Part shown: positions 23,338 through 29,337 of the stretch, in pieces | How the letters are laid out: every line of letters starts with the position of its first letter | Position numbering within the stretch: position 1 is the first letter of the stretch | Source: an uncultured Siphonobacter sp. | Lineage (GTDB): Bacteria > Bacteroidota > Bacteroidia > Cytophagales > Spirosomataceae | Assembly: GCA_913774715.1 (NCBI GenBank) | Contig: CAJYHS010000204.1 | Coordinates: 186,001 to 250,000 of the forward strand | Direction: 5' to 3' | Length of the DNA stretch: 64,000 nucleotides | Translations under genes and position numbers: made by a program | The notes under the pieces: generated by a model | Database searches by the model: none | Seen by the model: only the letters and a program-made list of their open reading frames with translations | What the model was told of the DNA's origin: nothing

Positions 23338-23856
23338 TTAATTGGCAACCTTCTTTTCTCTCCGGGTCAGGAAAGGCAGCCAACTTTCGTCGTTGATACC
23401 CGAGAAATCGCGAATGAACATAATGAAGGAAGGTTTATAAGGCCGCTGCCGCAGCAGCATTCCAGCTTCTTCAGGGGTGAAATCGCCCTTACGCGAGTTG
23501 CATCGCTTACAGGCGGTGGTAAGGTTATCCCAACTAGATTTCCCACTTCTCGACTTAGGTAATACGTGGTCGAGGGTCAAATCATCCGATGTTCCACAAT
23601 ACTGACATTGGTGGCCATCCCGACGAAAAATATTCTGACGGGTCAACATCACTCCCCGATAAGGCAGGTACACGTACTTATGCAGGCGAATAACCGTCGG
23701 TAAAGGAAAAGATTGAGAAATGCTCCGAAGATTCTCTGTTTGAGACTCTGAAATCAAATCGGCCTTTTTAAGGTAGACCAGTAAAAAAGCTTTGGCGACC
23801 GAGCATATCGTCAAGGCTGAGTAATCTTGATTCAGCACTAATACTTTTCTGCCCAT
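23338..23856 (-). CDS. HNH endonuclease family protein
   Basis: A 172-residue protein with a compact zinc-stabilised HNH fold: Cys84-x2-Cys87, the DH pair Asp96-His97 (LTLDHVLP), Asn111 in WDNLTTAC, and Cys116-x2-Cys119. The N-terminal 75 residues (VLVLNQDYSALTICSVAKAF) are typical of a conserved, stand-alone HNH family found in many Bacteroidota and cyanobacteria. Its cellular role is not defined. No restriction or phage genes are nearby, so it is probably a housekeeping nuclease rather than part of a defence system. Confidence 0.85.
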   Translation of the reverse strand: MGRKVLVLNQDYSALTICSVAKAFLLVYLKKADLISESQTENLRSISQSFPLPTVIRLHKYVYLPYRGVMLTRQNIFRRDGHQCQYCGTSDDLTLDHVLPKSRSGKSSWDNLTTACKRCNSRKGDFTPEEAGMLLRQRPYKPSFIMFIRDFSGINDESWLPFLTRREKKVAN

Positions 23857-23923: not shown

Positions 23924-23964
23924 AAAAATAATACACGCATAATAAAAGCTTTTCAGCGTGTATT
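23924..23964 (-). terminator. Terminator of the PAS histidine kinase gene
   Basis: On the minus strand AATACACGC pairs with GCGTGTATT (9 bp) around a loop holding the palindrome AAAAGCTTTT, then a T-run. It overlaps the stop codon. Confidence 0.6.
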
Positions 23965-24953
23965 TAGCGAAGCTGAAGTGGCAGGGAAATGTTCAGGGCG
24001 GTACCTTTTCCCGTTTCAGAATGAGCCGAAATTTTTCCCTGATGGGTTTCCACTATTTTTTTACTAAGAGCCAAACCCGCTCCACAACCCGGCGAATTAC
24101 GATTAAGCTGTTTAAATAATCGGAAAACGTCCTGACTATAAATTTCGTCGAAGCCTATACCATTATCAGTGAACTGAATGTCAACGGTTTGCTTATTGAC
24201 CTGGGCATTTACCTGAATTTGCAAAGGTCGGCCAGGTTCAGCGTATTTCGCAGAATTGTCCAGCACCTGATAAAAAAGCGTTTGTAACATCATACCCTGA
24301 CCGCGAATAACAGGTAGATGCCCTTTTATTAATACGGTTTCCTTAAGCCCATTTTCATCACATACGCGAAGCCAGCTCTTTTCCAGCACATCATTCAGAT
24401 TCACTGATTTTAGGCTTAGTTTCTCAGTGGCTGAAAAGGACGTATACTGGCGAATGGCATCCAGTAATTGTAAGGCCTGATAACTTTGATTGTTAGTTAT
24501 TTGCAGTAACATTAAGCTTTCGGGAGTAATCTGATTTTGGGTGTTTCCCCGAATCATATCAATGTAAAGCAGAATTTTACGCAAAGGCTCCCGCAGGTCG
24601 TGCGAGAAAATCTTGTTCATGAGTAACCATTCGTCATCCTTGTTCAGCATAGCATCTTCTTTCCTGCTTAGTACAAACTGACAAGCAGGCTGATTTTCTA
24701 CCCAAACCTCACGACTTTGGTAACGCCATTCAGGCAAAGAATTTTCTGCACTTAGAAAAGTAATAGCTCCGTCTGACTGCGTTTGCAGATGTTCCCAAGC
24801 AGAAGAAGAAAGGATCTGATCGAAGGGATGGCCAAGAATTTGAATAGCGGACTTTCCTGTTATCTGTAATACGTGATAACTGAAATCTAAGATGATACCG
24901 GAAGAAGATACAGTAATGAAGCCAAAAGCTCCCTTGGTATCGGGATGATTCAT
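23964..24953 (-). CDS. PAS-domain sensor histidine kinase
   Basis: A 329-residue soluble kinase with an N-terminal PAS-like sensor (residues 8-95, FGFITVSSSGIILDFSYHVL). The dimerisation helix has phospho-acceptor His118 (FSHDLREPLRK). The HATPase_c domain shows the N box DNSAKYAEPG, G1 DNGIGFD and G2 GCGAGLALSKKI. No membrane segment, so it senses a cytoplasmic signal. It is divergent from the bacteriophytochrome operon, sharing 327 bp of upstream DNA. The H-box type (SHDLREPL) is the one often seen in phytochrome-related kinases. It may feed the response regulator at 27522, but that is inference. Confidence 0.88.
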   Translation of the reverse strand: MNHPDTKGAFGFITVSSSGIILDFSYHVLQITGKSAIQILGHPFDQILSSSAWEHLQTQSDGAITFLSAENSLPEWRYQSREVWVENQPACQFVLSRKEDAMLNKDDEWLLMNKIFSHDLREPLRKILLYIDMIRGNTQNQITPESLMLLQITNNQSYQALQLLDAIRQYTSFSATEKLSLKSVNLNDVLEKSWLRVCDENGLKETVLIKGHLPVIRGQGMMLQTLFYQVLDNSAKYAEPGRPLQIQVNAQVNKQTVDIQFTDNGIGFDEIYSQDVFRLFKQLNRNSPGCGAGLALSKKIVETHQGKISAHSETGKGTALNISLPLQLR

Positions 24954-25280
24954 ATCTTAATTTAACTCCTACTCAAATGGTTACCAATTGGCCTTCTATG
25001 AAGAGTGCAATATACTTAATTAATAACCTAACCTTCTTAAGATAAGTTTGTGTTTTGTGATTCTAAAATTTATTCAACACAATTGAAAATCACGTTTATA
25101 TATTCAAAAAATTAAGAATCAATTGATTATAAGTCTACTCATTCACAATCTATTCTTAAAAAAAATGGTAAATTTAAAACTCCATACTTATTTATTTTGT
25201 TAGATATTCACCTTCTCCTTGTCTAGTAATTATTATAGCTTTACTACTGTTCAGCAAGACTTGATCAGTAATTCAAAGAC
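24954..25280. other. Divergent region between PAS kinase and bacteriophytochrome
   Basis: 327 bp, very AT-rich, with a 10-bp palindrome ATCAATTGAT at 25118-25127 and poly-A tracts. No ORF of note and no clear TTG/TAnnTTTG promoter; TAGCTTTA at 25236-25243 is the closest -7 match for the phytochrome gene. Confidence 0.5.
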
Positions 25281-27509
25281 ATGCAAAATATAGACATACA
25301 GGCTTGCGAGCACGAACCCATTCGGTATCTAGGCCATATTCAGGCCCATGGATATTTTCTGGCAGTAGACGCTGCTTCTTTTCAGGTACGCCAGCTTAGT
25401 ATAAACCTGGAGGAATTATTTTCTGAATCCGCTGAGAACATTATCGATAAACCTCTACAGTCGCTATCTATTAATGATTTAACCGGTACAGAACTGGTTC
25501 AATTAATTCAGATTGCAACCAAGCAGGGGATTGTGGAAGGTATGACACCGTTTAATGTGCATATCGACGGACGAGAATATTATCTGGTCATTCATCCTCT
25601 GGAAGGTTTATTTGTTCTTGAGTTCGAACCTAAAAATGAGGTTCTTTTTCCTGGTACGCTACAAACGTTAGTGAGCCGGGTCATGTCTAGCCTGCAACAA
25701 AGTAAGAGTATTCAGGAATTACTGGATCGCGTAGTAGTTGAGATGAAAGCCATTACGCAGTATGACCGCGTGATGATTTATCGTTTCGACGAAGACTGGA
25801 ATGGTGAAGTAGCAGCAGAAGCCAAAGAAGATCATCTGGAACCCTTTCTCGGCTTGCATTATCCGGCTTCGGATATTCCCCGGCAAGCTCGCGAATTATA
25901 TAAAACTAATTTAGTTCGAACGATTGTCGATTCCCACGCTCGTTCCGTGTCCATTTTTCCTGGAATGAACATGGAAACACGCGAGCCACTGGACCTAAGT
26001 CAATCTATTCTGCGGGCCGTTTCTCCGGTTCATATTGAATACCTGAAAAACATGGGGGTTCGTTCCAGCATGAGCTTTTCACTATTGTATAAAGGAGAGC
26101 TTTGGGGACTTATTTCATGTCACCAATATGATGAACCCCGACTGGTAGATTATACTTCCCGGATGTCTGGAAAGATGATCAGCCAGCTTCTTTCGGCTGC
26201 TCTGGAGTTCCGAAAAGATGAGGAAGATCAGACGATAGTTTCCCGCCTTTGGCGAAATGAACAGATCCTCTTCGAACAAATGCAACGTGACTGGAACGTT
26301 GTGCGGGGACTTACTCAGAAAGGTACTACGGCACTTGATATTTCGCTGGCCTCTGGCGTAGCACTGCTCTTTGAAGGAAAAGTGCATCGCGTTGGAACTA
26401 CTCCCGACGAGCCTCAGATTCTGAAAATCGTAGATTGGCTGAAAAACAATAAGGTTGATACCATTTTTCATACGAACCAATTCTCAAAAGTGTTCGGACC
26501 TGCGGTTGACTACCGCGATTCAGCTTCGGGAATGATGGCGATTGTTATCTCACGTCAGCTTGAAGAGTATCTTTTATGGTTTAAGCCTGAAGTAATGCAA
26601 CAGGTTAGCTGGGGAGGAAACCCGGAAGAAAAGCTAATGTGGACGGATGAAGCTGGAAGGAATCGTCTTAGCCCTCGGAAAAGCTTTGCTAAATGGACGC
26701 AGTTAGTAAGAAATACTTCAGAATCCTGGAAACCATCCGAAATTGAAACTGCTCTGAAACTTCGCGAGGATATTCTTCAGATTGTTAGTCAAAAAGCCAA
26801 TCAGATTCGGATTTTAAATGAGCAATTAAAGCTGGCTTATGAAGAGCTGGATACCTTCAGCTATACCGTTTCACACGATTTACGAACACCATTAGCATCG
26901 ATCAAGACTTACTCAGAAGTTCTGCTGATGGATTATGGCGATCGTTTGGACGAGGAAACAATTCCCCTATTTGAGAAAATAGTGTCTGCTAGTAATAAAA
27001 TGAGCGACCTAATTAGGGAAATTTTACACTATGCTCGTAGTGGTCGTACTGAGATGTCTACGGAACCGCTTCCGATGCAAGAGTTACTACATACGCTTAA
27101 AGACGAATTGCTAGTTACGAGTAAAAACCCAGCCTTAGTGGTTGAAATAGGCGAGACACCTCCCATCCGAGGAGACAAGACCATGATTATGCAGGTTTTT
27201 ACTAATTTATTAACCAATGCTATTAAATATTCCCAAACGGTAGCTGAACCCAAAATCACTATAAATGGCTCAAAAACGGATGAAGCCGTCGTATATGCCA
27301 TTTCCGATAACGGCATTGGGATTGATATGAATCAAAGTGGTAAGGTTTTTGATTTATTCAAACGGTTGGATAATGCACGGGATTATGAAGGTCATGGTGT
27401 AGGTCTTGCCATTGTGAAACGAATCATGCAAAGACATCATGGCAAAGTATGGTTTTATAGTGAACCTTCCCGTGAAACGACCTTCTATGTCTCATTTCCC
27501 CTGGCTTAA
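25281..27509 (+). CDS. bphP: Bacteriophytochrome, red/far-red light sensor histidine kinase
   Basis: A 742-residue photoreceptor kinase. PAS-GAF-PHY photosensory core: the N-terminal Cys9 in IQACEHEPIRYLGHIQAHGY is at the biliverdin-attachment position of bacteriophytochromes, and the GAF signature PASDIPRQAR lies at 195-204. The PHY domain follows to about residue 500. A coiled linker (IRILNEQLKLAYEELDTF) leads to HisKA with His532 (SHDLRTPLASIKTYS) and a HATPase domain with NLLTNAIKYS, DNGIGID and GHGVGLAIVKRI. All key residues are present, so it should bind biliverdin and signal. It is first in an operon with its response regulator and the heme oxygenase that makes its pigment. Confidence 0.96.
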   Translation: MQNIDIQACEHEPIRYLGHIQAHGYFLAVDAASFQVRQLSINLEELFSESAENIIDKPLQSLSINDLTGTELVQLIQIATKQGIVEGMTPFNVHIDGREYYLVIHPLEGLFVLEFEPKNEVLFPGTLQTLVSRVMSSLQQSKSIQELLDRVVVEMKAITQYDRVMIYRFDEDWNGEVAAEAKEDHLEPFLGLHYPASDIPRQARELYKTNLVRTIVDSHARSVSIFPGMNMETREPLDLSQSILRAVSPVHIEYLKNMGVRSSMSFSLLYKGELWGLISCHQYDEPRLVDYTSRMSGKMISQLLSAALEFRKDEEDQTIVSRLWRNEQILFEQMQRDWNVVRGLTQKGTTALDISLASGVALLFEGKVHRVGTTPDEPQILKIVDWLKNNKVDTIFHTNQFSKVFGPAVDYRDSASGMMAIVISRQLEEYLLWFKPEVMQQVSWGGNPEEKLMWTDEAGRNRLSPRKSFAKWTQLVRNTSESWKPSEIETALKLREDILQIVSQKANQIRILNEQLKLAYEELDTFSYTVSHDLRTPLASIKTYSEVLLMDYGDRLDEETIPLFEKIVSASNKMSDLIREILHYARSGRTEMSTEPLPMQELLHTLKDELLVTSKNPALVVEIGETPPIRGDKTMIMQVFTNLLTNAIKYSQTVAEPKITINGSKTDEAVVYAISDNGIGIDMNQSGKVFDLFKRLDNARDYEGHGVGLAIVKRIMQRHHGKVWFYSEPSRETTFYVSFPLA

Positions 27510-27521
27510 TTGAATAATAGT

Positions 27522-27944
27522 ATGATAGATGTATTGTATGTTGAAGACAACCCGGACGATGTAGACATCTTTAAACGGGTTATTGGAAAAATAAATCAGC
27601 CTCCGACATATAAAGTAATTACCACCGGCAGCGAAGCAATTGATTATGTTCTTAAACGGGGTAATTACGAAAGCCCGGAAGTCATTCTTCCAAAAATGTT
27701 ATTACTTGATTTAAATTTACCCGGTAACAACGGGTTTGAGGTATTACAACAGATTCGTTCAAACTCACAGGGACGCTATCTGCCGATCGTCGTGTACAGT
27801 ACCTCAGACAATCCTAAAGATATGCGGGAAGCTTTTGATCTGGGAGCAAATGCATATCTGGTAAAACCCGGAGGTTACCGTGAAGTAAGTGATATGTTGC
27901 GTAGGGCTCTGGATTTCTGGCTCGCACAAAAAGCCAATCAATAA
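27522..27944 (+). CDS. Single-domain response regulator, Rcp1-like
   Basis: A 140-residue receiver domain with no output domain. Start set at ATG 27522, 12 bp after the phytochrome stop; a TTG at 27510 is possible. The acidic pair is in YVEDNPDD, the phospho-acceptor Asp63 in LLLDLNLP, Ser/Thr in VYSTSDN and Lys115 in YLVKPGG. This subclass (as in cyanobacterial Rcp1) is the usual partner of phytochrome kinases and passes phosphate on or acts through protein contacts. Position directly after bphP makes it the likely cognate partner. Confidence 0.92.
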   Translation: MIDVLYVEDNPDDVDIFKRVIGKINQPPTYKVITTGSEAIDYVLKRGNYESPEVILPKMLLLDLNLPGNNGFEVLQQIRSNSQGRYLPIVVYSTSDNPKDMREAFDLGANAYLVKPGGYREVSDMLRRALDFWLAQKANQ

Positions 27945-27950
27945 GTATTC

Positions 27951-28508
27951 ATGGGAGAGATTTTGAGTCAGCTTAAAGAACAAACACGGGAGTTACACGA
28001 ACAGACCGAACAGTTATTTTATACCGATGCTTTGAAAGATGGGACATTAACCTCTGATCAGTATAAGCATTTATTACAAGCTCACCTGGCTTTTCATAAA
28101 GCTCTGGAAAATGCATTAAGTACAATTGAAGATTATCCACTGGAAGAACGTAGGAAAGCGGGCTGGATTGAAGCTGATTTAACGGCGATACATGAATCAC
28201 CCAAATTGGCACAAACGAGCACTTTTGCGGGTTGGGATACGCCAGAGTTACTAGGAGCCGCTTATGTAGCTGAAGGTTCAATGCTAGGAGGCCAGGTTAT
28301 CAAACGCTGGTTACAGGCACACCCCGAACTAGGTTCTTATGCCGGAGACTCGCAATTCTACGGCGGGTACGGTAAAAGTACTGGTGAACGCTGGAAAGCT
28401 TTTGGTTCTTACCTAGTAGATAAGTCTACAGGTCATGAACCTGCAATTGTAGAAGGAGCTAAAAAGGCATTTAAGGCCTATCAGGATATATTTAGAGAAG
28501 TAGCTTAA
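27951..28508 (+). CDS. bphO: Biliverdin-producing heme oxygenase
   Basis: Opens heme to biliverdin, CO and iron. 185 residues, all-helical heme oxygenase fold, with proximal ligand His16 in TRELHEQTEQ and the distal-helix signature AYVAEGSMLGGQVI, which supplies the flexible glycines over the heme. It starts 6 bp after the response-regulator stop, so the operon produces receptor, relay and chromophore together. Stand-alone heme oxygenases can also serve iron acquisition, but the operon context favours pigment supply. Ends at a very strong terminator. Confidence 0.95.
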   Translation: MGEILSQLKEQTRELHEQTEQLFYTDALKDGTLTSDQYKHLLQAHLAFHKALENALSTIEDYPLEERRKAGWIEADLTAIHESPKLAQTSTFAGWDTPELLGAAYVAEGSMLGGQVIKRWLQAHPELGSYAGDSQFYGGYGKSTGERWKAFGSYLVDKSTGHEPAIVEGAKKAFKAYQDIFREVA

Positions 28509-28520
28509 TTAAATGCCTTA

Positions 28521-28573
28521 TTAACAAAAAAGCGTCGGTTTCAATAGTATTGAAACCGACGCTTTTTTGTTAA
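28521..28573. terminator. Bidirectional terminator, phytochrome operon / metallo-beta-lactamase
   Basis: Perfect 24-bp arms (28521-28544 and 28550-28573) around the loop TAGTA, GC-rich in the centre (AGCGTCGG) with A6 and T6 tracts outside. Among the longest perfect hairpins in the window. Confidence 0.95.
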
Positions 28574-28584
28574 TAAAAGATGGA

Positions 28585-29337
28585 TTAGTGCCTAGACGCA
28601 TTATATTTTTTTACCAACTGCAAAGTGTGATTCAACGCTTTCTTATCTCCCCACTGATCATGCCCGGGAATTACCAACTTGGCAGAACCAAACCGGGTGA
28701 TCAAACGTCTGGTCGAATTTTCCCATTCCTTCAGATTTGCATCTGCAATGTTACCCATCCCGAAGACCCCTACACTTTTCACTAAACAACCCCCATGCAG
28801 AATTTTATACTTAGGTAACCATACCACAATATTGTCACTCGTATGACCTTCTCCCGGAAAAAAGCAACGAAAGGGCATTTCTCCTATGGTAAAGCTCGTA
28901 TCTGCGGGCAAAATAGCCTCAGGTGACTCGTATCCCTCTTTCGTTGATTTCTGAGCCGTGAGGGGCGTACTTATTACTCGTATACCAGCTTTTTTCAGTT
29001 CGCCGATTCCTCCTACCCGGTCATCGTGTGAATGAGTGACAATACAAAGCTTAACTGGCTGGTGTAAATGCTGATCTACCCACTGAAGTATCTGCCGGGT
29101 ATTATCGGTGTCGTCTTTGGTATCCCACCCCGTATCAATCAAGACTACTCCATCTTTCGTATTTACAATTAACCCATTAGAGGGAATCGCCTGATTTTGA
29201 TAGATGCCATACGTCACATGAACGAATACATTTTCATTCAGCTTTGTGATTTCGAGCTTAGGCTTCTGAATCGTTTGAGCCCAGCTTGTATTAACGATTA
29301 ATATTGAAAAAACAGATACAATCAATATTCGCAGCAT
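28585..29337 (-). CDS. Subclass B1 metallo-beta-lactamase
   Basis: A 250-residue periplasmic enzyme with signal peptide (LRILIVSVFSILIVNTSWAQ). All B1 zinc ligands are present: site 1 His102, His104 (THSHDD) and His165 (GEGHTSDN); site 2 Asp106, Cys184 (HGGCLVKS) and His226 (VIPGHDQWGD). Lys187 of CLVKS, which binds the substrate carboxylate in B1 enzymes, is kept, as is the DNIVVWLP strand shared with BcII and BlaB/IND types. Hydrolysis of penicillins, cephalosporins and possibly carbapenems is expected from the family, but spectrum cannot be read from sequence. Chromosomal context, no mobile element nearby: probably intrinsic. Confidence 0.93.
   Translation of the reverse strand: MLRILIVSVFSILIVNTSWAQTIQKPKLEITKLNENVFVHVTYGIYQNQAIPSNGLIVNTKDGVVLIDTGWDTKDDTDNTRQILQWVDQHLHQPVKLCIVTHSHDDRVGGIGELKKAGIRVISTPLTAQKSTKEGYESPEAILPADTSFTIGEMPFRCFFPGEGHTSDNIVVWLPKYKILHGGCLVKSVGVFGMGNIADANLKEWENSTRRLITRFGSAKLVIPGHDQWGDKKALNHTLQLVKKYNASRH

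Follow-up and report, generated by a model that had tools for sequence, protein, structure and literature searches.

A histidine kinase gene lay within 650 bp of the phytochrome, receiver, and heme oxygenase block in 56 of the 64 loci that carried, outside the window, the window's own phytochrome type (class A), and in none of the 33 loci examined that carried a second type (class B). The window is a stretch of 64,000 nt from an uncultured Siphonobacter sp., in which a PAS histidine kinase gene is transcribed divergently from a three-gene red-light operon (Table 1). On the evidence of gene neighborhood, the companion kinase is a recurrent neighbor of the class A phytochrome, and this recurrence supports, rather than demonstrates, the use of a single receiver by the two enzymes.

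Table 1. Positions of the features discussed, numbered from the first nucleotide of the window
Feature	Position	Strand	Details
Companion PAS histidine kinase, 329 aa	23964..24953	-	PAS ~11-97, HisKA His118 (SHDLREPLRK), HATPase_c
Intergenic region separating the kinase gene from bphP, 327 bp	24954..25280	.
bphP, bacteriophytochrome, 742 aa	25281..27509	+	PAS_2-GAF-PHY-HisKA-HATPase_c
Rcp1-like single-domain response regulator, 140 aa	27522..27944	+	likely phospho-acceptor Asp63
Heme oxygenase BphO, 185 aa	27951..28508	+	Pfam; EGSMLGG at 108
Inverted repeat, A/T-run flanks	28521..28573	.	read by eye

The red-light operon and its divergent kinase

All five domains of BphP (PAS_2, GAF, PHY, HisKA, and HATPase_c) scored above their Pfam cut-offs, and the protein contained Cys9, PASDIP at residues 195-200, SPRKSF from residue 464, and H532 within SHDLRTPLASI. 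We take Cys9, the DIP motif, the PRxSF tongue, and H532 to hold the corresponding phytochrome roles (biliverdin cysteine, tongue, and phospho-acceptor histidine). Domains and residues thus bore out the first-pass annotation, which had described a complete bacteriophytochrome with Cys9, PASDIP, and H532. The NCBIfam BphP equivalog model matched below its cut-off (307 vs. 1040 bits). The closest named relatives of BphP were on Siphonobacter contigs (86, 83, and 70% identity), and the window's genome (G000) contained one PHY match.

The receiver protein consisted of a lone Response_reg domain (Pfam, 58.9 bits). Its nearest PDB sequence was the phytochrome regulator RcpB (1k66, ranked first, E = 1.1e-23), with RcpA (1k68) ranked third (E = 2.8e-19), in agreement with the first-pass statement that such kinases use Rcp1-like regulators; the 140 aa held the receiver domain only, and the lack of a DNA-binding domain had been noted earlier. 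The receiver ORF also opens at TTG 27510. The ATG at 27522 is the likely start because three of five genus relatives (G083, G060, and G020) begin at the equivalent Met, and the gap between bphP and the receiver gene is therefore 12 bp; the gap between the receiver and heme oxygenase genes is 6 bp. With this start, the arrangement first proposed (a single-domain receiver and a heme oxygenase, spaced by 12 and 6 bp) was confirmed.

The heme oxygenase matched Pfam Heme_oxygenase with 67.6 bits (cut-off 23) and matched no NCBIfam model; His16 is presumably its proximal histidine, and we assume a role for its EGSMLGG motif. This linked enzyme was the sole Pfam heme oxygenase match in the window's genome, for which reason the biliverdin supply there is taken as the operon's own. 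The genes support the reading of the operon as a common kind of red-light two-component system, supplied with biliverdin in that genome by its own enzyme. The description of the locus as self-sufficient, made in the first-pass annotation, accordingly stood for the window's genome and failed for the genus, because three of six genus genomes (G072, G060, and G020) had no heme oxygenase at the locus and a different one elsewhere. The enzymes encoded elsewhere (L132, L133, and L134) were about 32-35% identical to that of the window; locus-linked orthologs were 84% and 56% identical.

The inverted repeat that follows the operon is read as a putative bidirectional terminator, which would close both the operon and a convergent beta-lactamase gene. 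It was absent from the output of the promoter/terminator scan, in which terminators were near chance (6 vs. a mean of 4.6 in shuffles). Promoter-like sites exceeded chance (22 vs. a mean of 12.1 in shuffles) but were left unused, because promoters in this phylum are expected to follow a consensus other than that of sigma-70. Genes were called mechanically; errors are possible in start codons and in small genes. The convergent gene (28585-29337, - strand) encoded a metallo-beta-lactamase of subclass B1 (279 bits to NCBIfam NF033088, cut-off 200), which was present in three of six genus genomes within the stretches examined; none of its plasmid-borne matches in PLSDB reached 60% identity (first-listed match, 41.7%).

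In the divergent kinase, HATPase_c scored above its Pfam cut-off, HisKA slightly below (22.8 vs. 26.9), and PAS below threshold (PAS_9, 18.8 vs. 27); of the three orthologs scanned, P0002 alone exceeded the PAS cut-off (29.9). Residues 11-97 appear to have a PAS-like topology, as judged from the order of strands and helices in an AF2 model that was weak overall (mean pLDDT 58.5). Foldseek searches with this model returned PAS/LOV kinases, and we count these matches as supportive because the model is weak. The nearest PDB sequence was the kinase domain of the phytochrome RpBphP2 (8f71). No REC domain was found by Pfam scan in the kinase, and no Cys was invariant among four aligned kinases. On the kinase's own side, an HNH gene and then RuvB were found and no receiver gene was seen, which fits its original description as a divergent PAS histidine kinase without a regulator of its own.

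The best match of the kinase adjoined bphP, divergently, in all six genus genomes, so that the conservation in relatives put forward as a check by the first-pass annotation was found. This adjacency argues only weakly for a link, because the HNH, RuvB, and hydrolase genes on the kinase side were equally syntenic in the six genomes. The same synteny favors another reading, a serious possibility that we nonetheless rate below an even chance, in which the kinase is an independent orphan that serves another short receiver and came to lie beside bphP through block inheritance. The HNH endonuclease, a stand-alone gene downstream of the kinase (23338-23856, - strand) kept in 6/6 genomes, gave a partial match to the HNH region of IscB (57 bits, below the cut-off of 175). 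The intergenic region between the kinase and bphP measured 176-323 bp in five genus relatives (mechanical starts) and was poorly conserved; short patches aside, its alignment within the genus revealed no clear common motif.

Identity to the kinase half of the window protein was 73, 71, 59, 58, and 39% in G083, G072, G060, G020, and G046, respectively, and identity to its PAS half was 50, 37, 31, 23, and 39%; in all but G046, the sensor thus drifts faster. Identity of the kinase within the genus ranged from 65% to 34%. Such fast divergence would be expected if the kinase were decaying and had no role, as would the loss of the first N-box Asn, which is Gln in the window, Gln or His in all six genus kinases, and conserved as Asn in 50 of the 51 other companions. 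Kinase activity may therefore be weak. Decay is nevertheless very improbable: the frames were open in 6/6 genomes, and the phospho-acceptor His, the Asp at H+1, and the second N-box Asn were invariant. Substitution rates also point away from it. Values of dN were 0.236 (dS about 2.1, near saturation; window vs. G083) and 0.118 (dS 1.06; G060 vs. G020, with mechanical ORF starts possibly extended), and dS was infinite for the window vs. G072. The excess of dS over dN therefore indicates purifying selection, though dS was near or at saturation.

Kinase adjacency and histidine-box residues in the family

Relatives of BphP were present in 106 of 200 genomes of the GTDB family. Class A comprised full-length phytochromes with a sensor score of at least 440 bits (64 loci besides the window), and class B comprised the second type, with about 30-36% identity (33 of 44 loci examined). 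Together with three class A-type fragments, 100 loci besides the window were surveyed. Heme oxygenase was encoded at the locus in 56/64 class A loci, and 19 of the 33 class B loci had the gene order R-HO-P.

The 56 class A companions were convergent downstream (42), tandem downstream (9), or divergent upstream (5, all in the genus of the window). An adjacent kinase also accompanied two of the three class A-type fragments. Eight class A loci had no companion within 650 bp (G029, G068, G120, G175b, G172, G042, G015, and G026); at the expected place, the contig of G068 showed only a 15-residue match to the companion's end. Each of the two or three class A modules of G130, G169, and G039 had its own companion, as did one of the two modules of G175. 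Nine genomes tested contained 68-105 HATPase matches each, and we estimate that a HATPase gene would be adjacent by chance in about 3% of cases. The 56 of 64 loci are not independent, most belonging to few genera, and no P value is claimed.

None of the 56 companions was a REC hybrid. No further short receiver was encoded within 1 kb of 54 of them, as judged with a modest query set (9 of 15 queries usable) that other receiver types could escape; the remaining two (G038 and G002) had a receiver-bearing ORF of 350 aa at 0.6-0.7 kb. The difference between the two phytochrome classes in kinase adjacency argues against an orphan kinase placed beside bphP by inheritance alone.

The histidine box also differed between phytochrome and companion. 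Class A BphPs (n = 65, window included) had Thr (59), Ser (5), or Val (1) at H+4 and never Arg at H+7 (0/65), the box being mostly HDLRTPL. All 57 companions (window included) had Glu at H+4 and Arg at H+7, in an HDLxEPLR box, and so did all class B BphPs that scored <300 bits (n = 30). Because the background kinases in the tree described below, picked by similarity to the window kinase, mostly carried both residues too (Glu at H+4 in 13/14, Arg at H+7 in 13/14), HDLxEPLR is a mark of the guild and not specific to companions. According to PMC8292422, the phosphatase activity of HisKA-family enzymes is controlled by the residue at H+4, and an Arg at H+7 contacts the receiver. The same source describes DrBphP, which has Glu at H+4, as a phosphatase (PMC8292422); H+4 and H+7 consequently do not distinguish an enzyme that loads the receiver from one that unloads it.

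The window's genome held 18 HDLxEPLRK motifs vs. 78 HATPase matches. Of the 17 motifs other than the window's, 4 had a short receiver within 0.8 kb and 13 had none at that distance (some contigs being short). Matches to short receivers totaled 23, with the window's counted. The kinase could thus have another partner, and these numbers count in favor of the orphan reading.

Possible receiver sharing and known circuits

Cph1 and Rcp1 exemplify a phytochrome kinase with a single-domain receiver, and bphP operons linked to heme oxygenase are known. Compared with phytochrome and single-domain receiver systems, the window has a linked heme oxygenase as well. We propose that this enzyme would supply biliverdin, to be bound at Cys9 of BphP, and that Pr/Pfr switching would change the kinase/phosphatase balance of BphP toward the adjacent Rcp1-like receiver. 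Judged from the anatomy of the genes and from the known families, this core is very probable. The divergent PAS kinase would, as the first-pass annotation suggested, provide a second input to the receiver of BphP, which would sum light and the signal sensed by the PAS domain. For such sharing of the receiver we see about equal chances of its being right or wrong, and the whole explanation, with a BphP-receiver core and the PAS kinase as second input, is likewise a balanced proposition.

The box residues suggest how labor might be divided. BphP has HDLRT, with the classical phosphatase residue Thr at H+4, and HDLREPLR of the companion (Glu at H+4, Arg at H+7) would correspond to the signature by which DrBphP is described as contacting its receiver. 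One enzyme would load the receiver and the other unload it; the residues do not say which. Since the receiver has no output domain, its output may pass through protein contact, or it may act as a phosphate sink. More speculatively, the phytochrome of this family, with HDLRTPL where HDLxEPLR would otherwise stand, may have ceded its receiver-contact surface to the companion, kinases of the HDLxEPLR type with interchangeable PAS inputs having been recruited to its side more than once. Phytochrome and companion would then be obligate partners, one loading and the other unloading a common receiver. We think this extension improbable; if true, it would make the pair a modular light AND/NOT gate in which lineages exchange the second input.

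Systems of the DrBphP/DrRR and Agp1/AtRR1 type (PMC8292422) resemble the window in pairing a phytochrome histidine kinase with a receiver. The window differs in that its BphP has the box HDLRTPL and not the HDLxEPLR of class B phytochromes, and a companion kinase is encoded next door. Convergence of two kinases on one regulator is described in PMC6932827 for Pseudomonas aeruginosa, where KinB and BphP act on AlgB in opposing kinase/phosphatase roles. The window resembles it by gene neighborhood, in which the genes for a phytochrome and for another histidine kinase accompany that for one regulator. AlgB, compared in that text with NtrC-family regulators, controls genes (PMC6932827), whereas the receiver of the window has no output domain.

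Rhodopseudomonas palustris, whose genes for the phytochromes RpBphP2/P3 cluster with those for the receiver LhfD and the kinase LhfE, combines light with redox through this system (PMC6879726). The Lhf system is similar to the window in that phytochromes, a receiver, and a further histidine kinase are encoded together. LhfE bears a redox cysteine as well as a REC domain (PMC6879726), whereas the window kinase has one PAS domain, no REC domain found by Pfam scan, and no Cys invariant in the alignment. The Lhf circuit also bears on an unlikely alternative, in which the companion acts on BphP itself or downstream of it, through a hetero-oligomer or a second relay step as proposed for LhfE, and adds no parallel input to the receiver. 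Deletion of LhfE in a bphP2 point mutant suggests that it works downstream of the phytochromes (PMC6879726); its REC domain could take the phosphate, and no such domain was found in the window kinase.

Because the KinB-AlgB-BphP and Lhf circuits are known, sharing of the receiver by BphP and the PAS kinase is plausible. Kinase exchange among phytochromes has been described (PMC4422448), and the downstream partners of phytochromes in nonphotosynthetic bacteria are called largely not understood in PMC6932827. Coverage of mostly open-access literature returned no treatment of the association between class A phytochromes and companion kinases in this family. The companion kinase, a repeated neighbor of class A phytochromes that was absent beside class B, makes a concrete candidate for integrating signals through a single-domain receiver. 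The companions also offer related kinase cores on which sensor domains have been exchanged in nature, useful for studying the kinase/phosphatase division of labor.

Companion phylogeny and loci outside the family

The kinase-domain tree comprised 88 rows, with 8 of 22 chosen background kinases and the companion L160 left out. Fifty of the 51 convergent and tandem companions formed one group (support 87, at an open fork), and the six genus kinases formed a separate clade (support 99). A single clade of all companions, which would make the genus kinase orthologous to the others, was disfavored (AU test, P = 0.011) in a quick tree of 57 rows, from which four long rows (G046's kinase included) and most convergent companions were omitted. 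That the genus kinases and the other companions do not form one clade suggests separate recruitment, a lean rather than a proof given the long branches. The position of the window kinase outside the group of other genera's companions agrees with the orphan reading.

Among other Bacteroidota, 40 regions were obtained, covering 41 of 42 nonfamily PHY matches in a sample of 395 genomes. A nonphytochrome kinase was encoded within 650 bp of the block in 8 of the 40 (L227, L228, L242, L243, L250, L251, L254, and L256); at L256 a receiver was also beside the kinase. L252 had a kinase with a receiver of its own, and 29 of the 40 regions showed no companion kinase. Two genomes of the same order as the window had the order BphP-REC-HK. 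Outside the 395-genome sample, Gillisia and Salegentibacter carried a tandem HK-BphP-REC-HO arrangement, with PAS kinases of 1227 aa (L065, 2998-6681) and 1213 aa (L079, 3079-6720) directly upstream of BphP; both are provisionally labeled CheB/CheR-like from the L065 translation. The pairing of kinase and phytochrome in flavobacteria, in a different architecture, argues against the window kinase being an orphan.

These loci rejected, as a general rule, that Thr at H+4 means a companion. Eight phytochromes outside the family had Thr at H+4 and no companion, seven with HDLGTPL and one with HDLRTPL (at the P-R-HO locus L233), and at two same-order loci a phytochrome with HDLKEPLRG had a companion.

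Further layouts were observed in the nonfamily regions. At L230 and L239, a phytochrome photosensory module of about 500 aa had no kinase of its own and was followed by a large kinase (1616 and 1513 aa, respectively); both are possible split phytochromes. At L236, one receiver gene lay between two phytochrome genes, followed by heme oxygenase, a layout of two kinases and one receiver.
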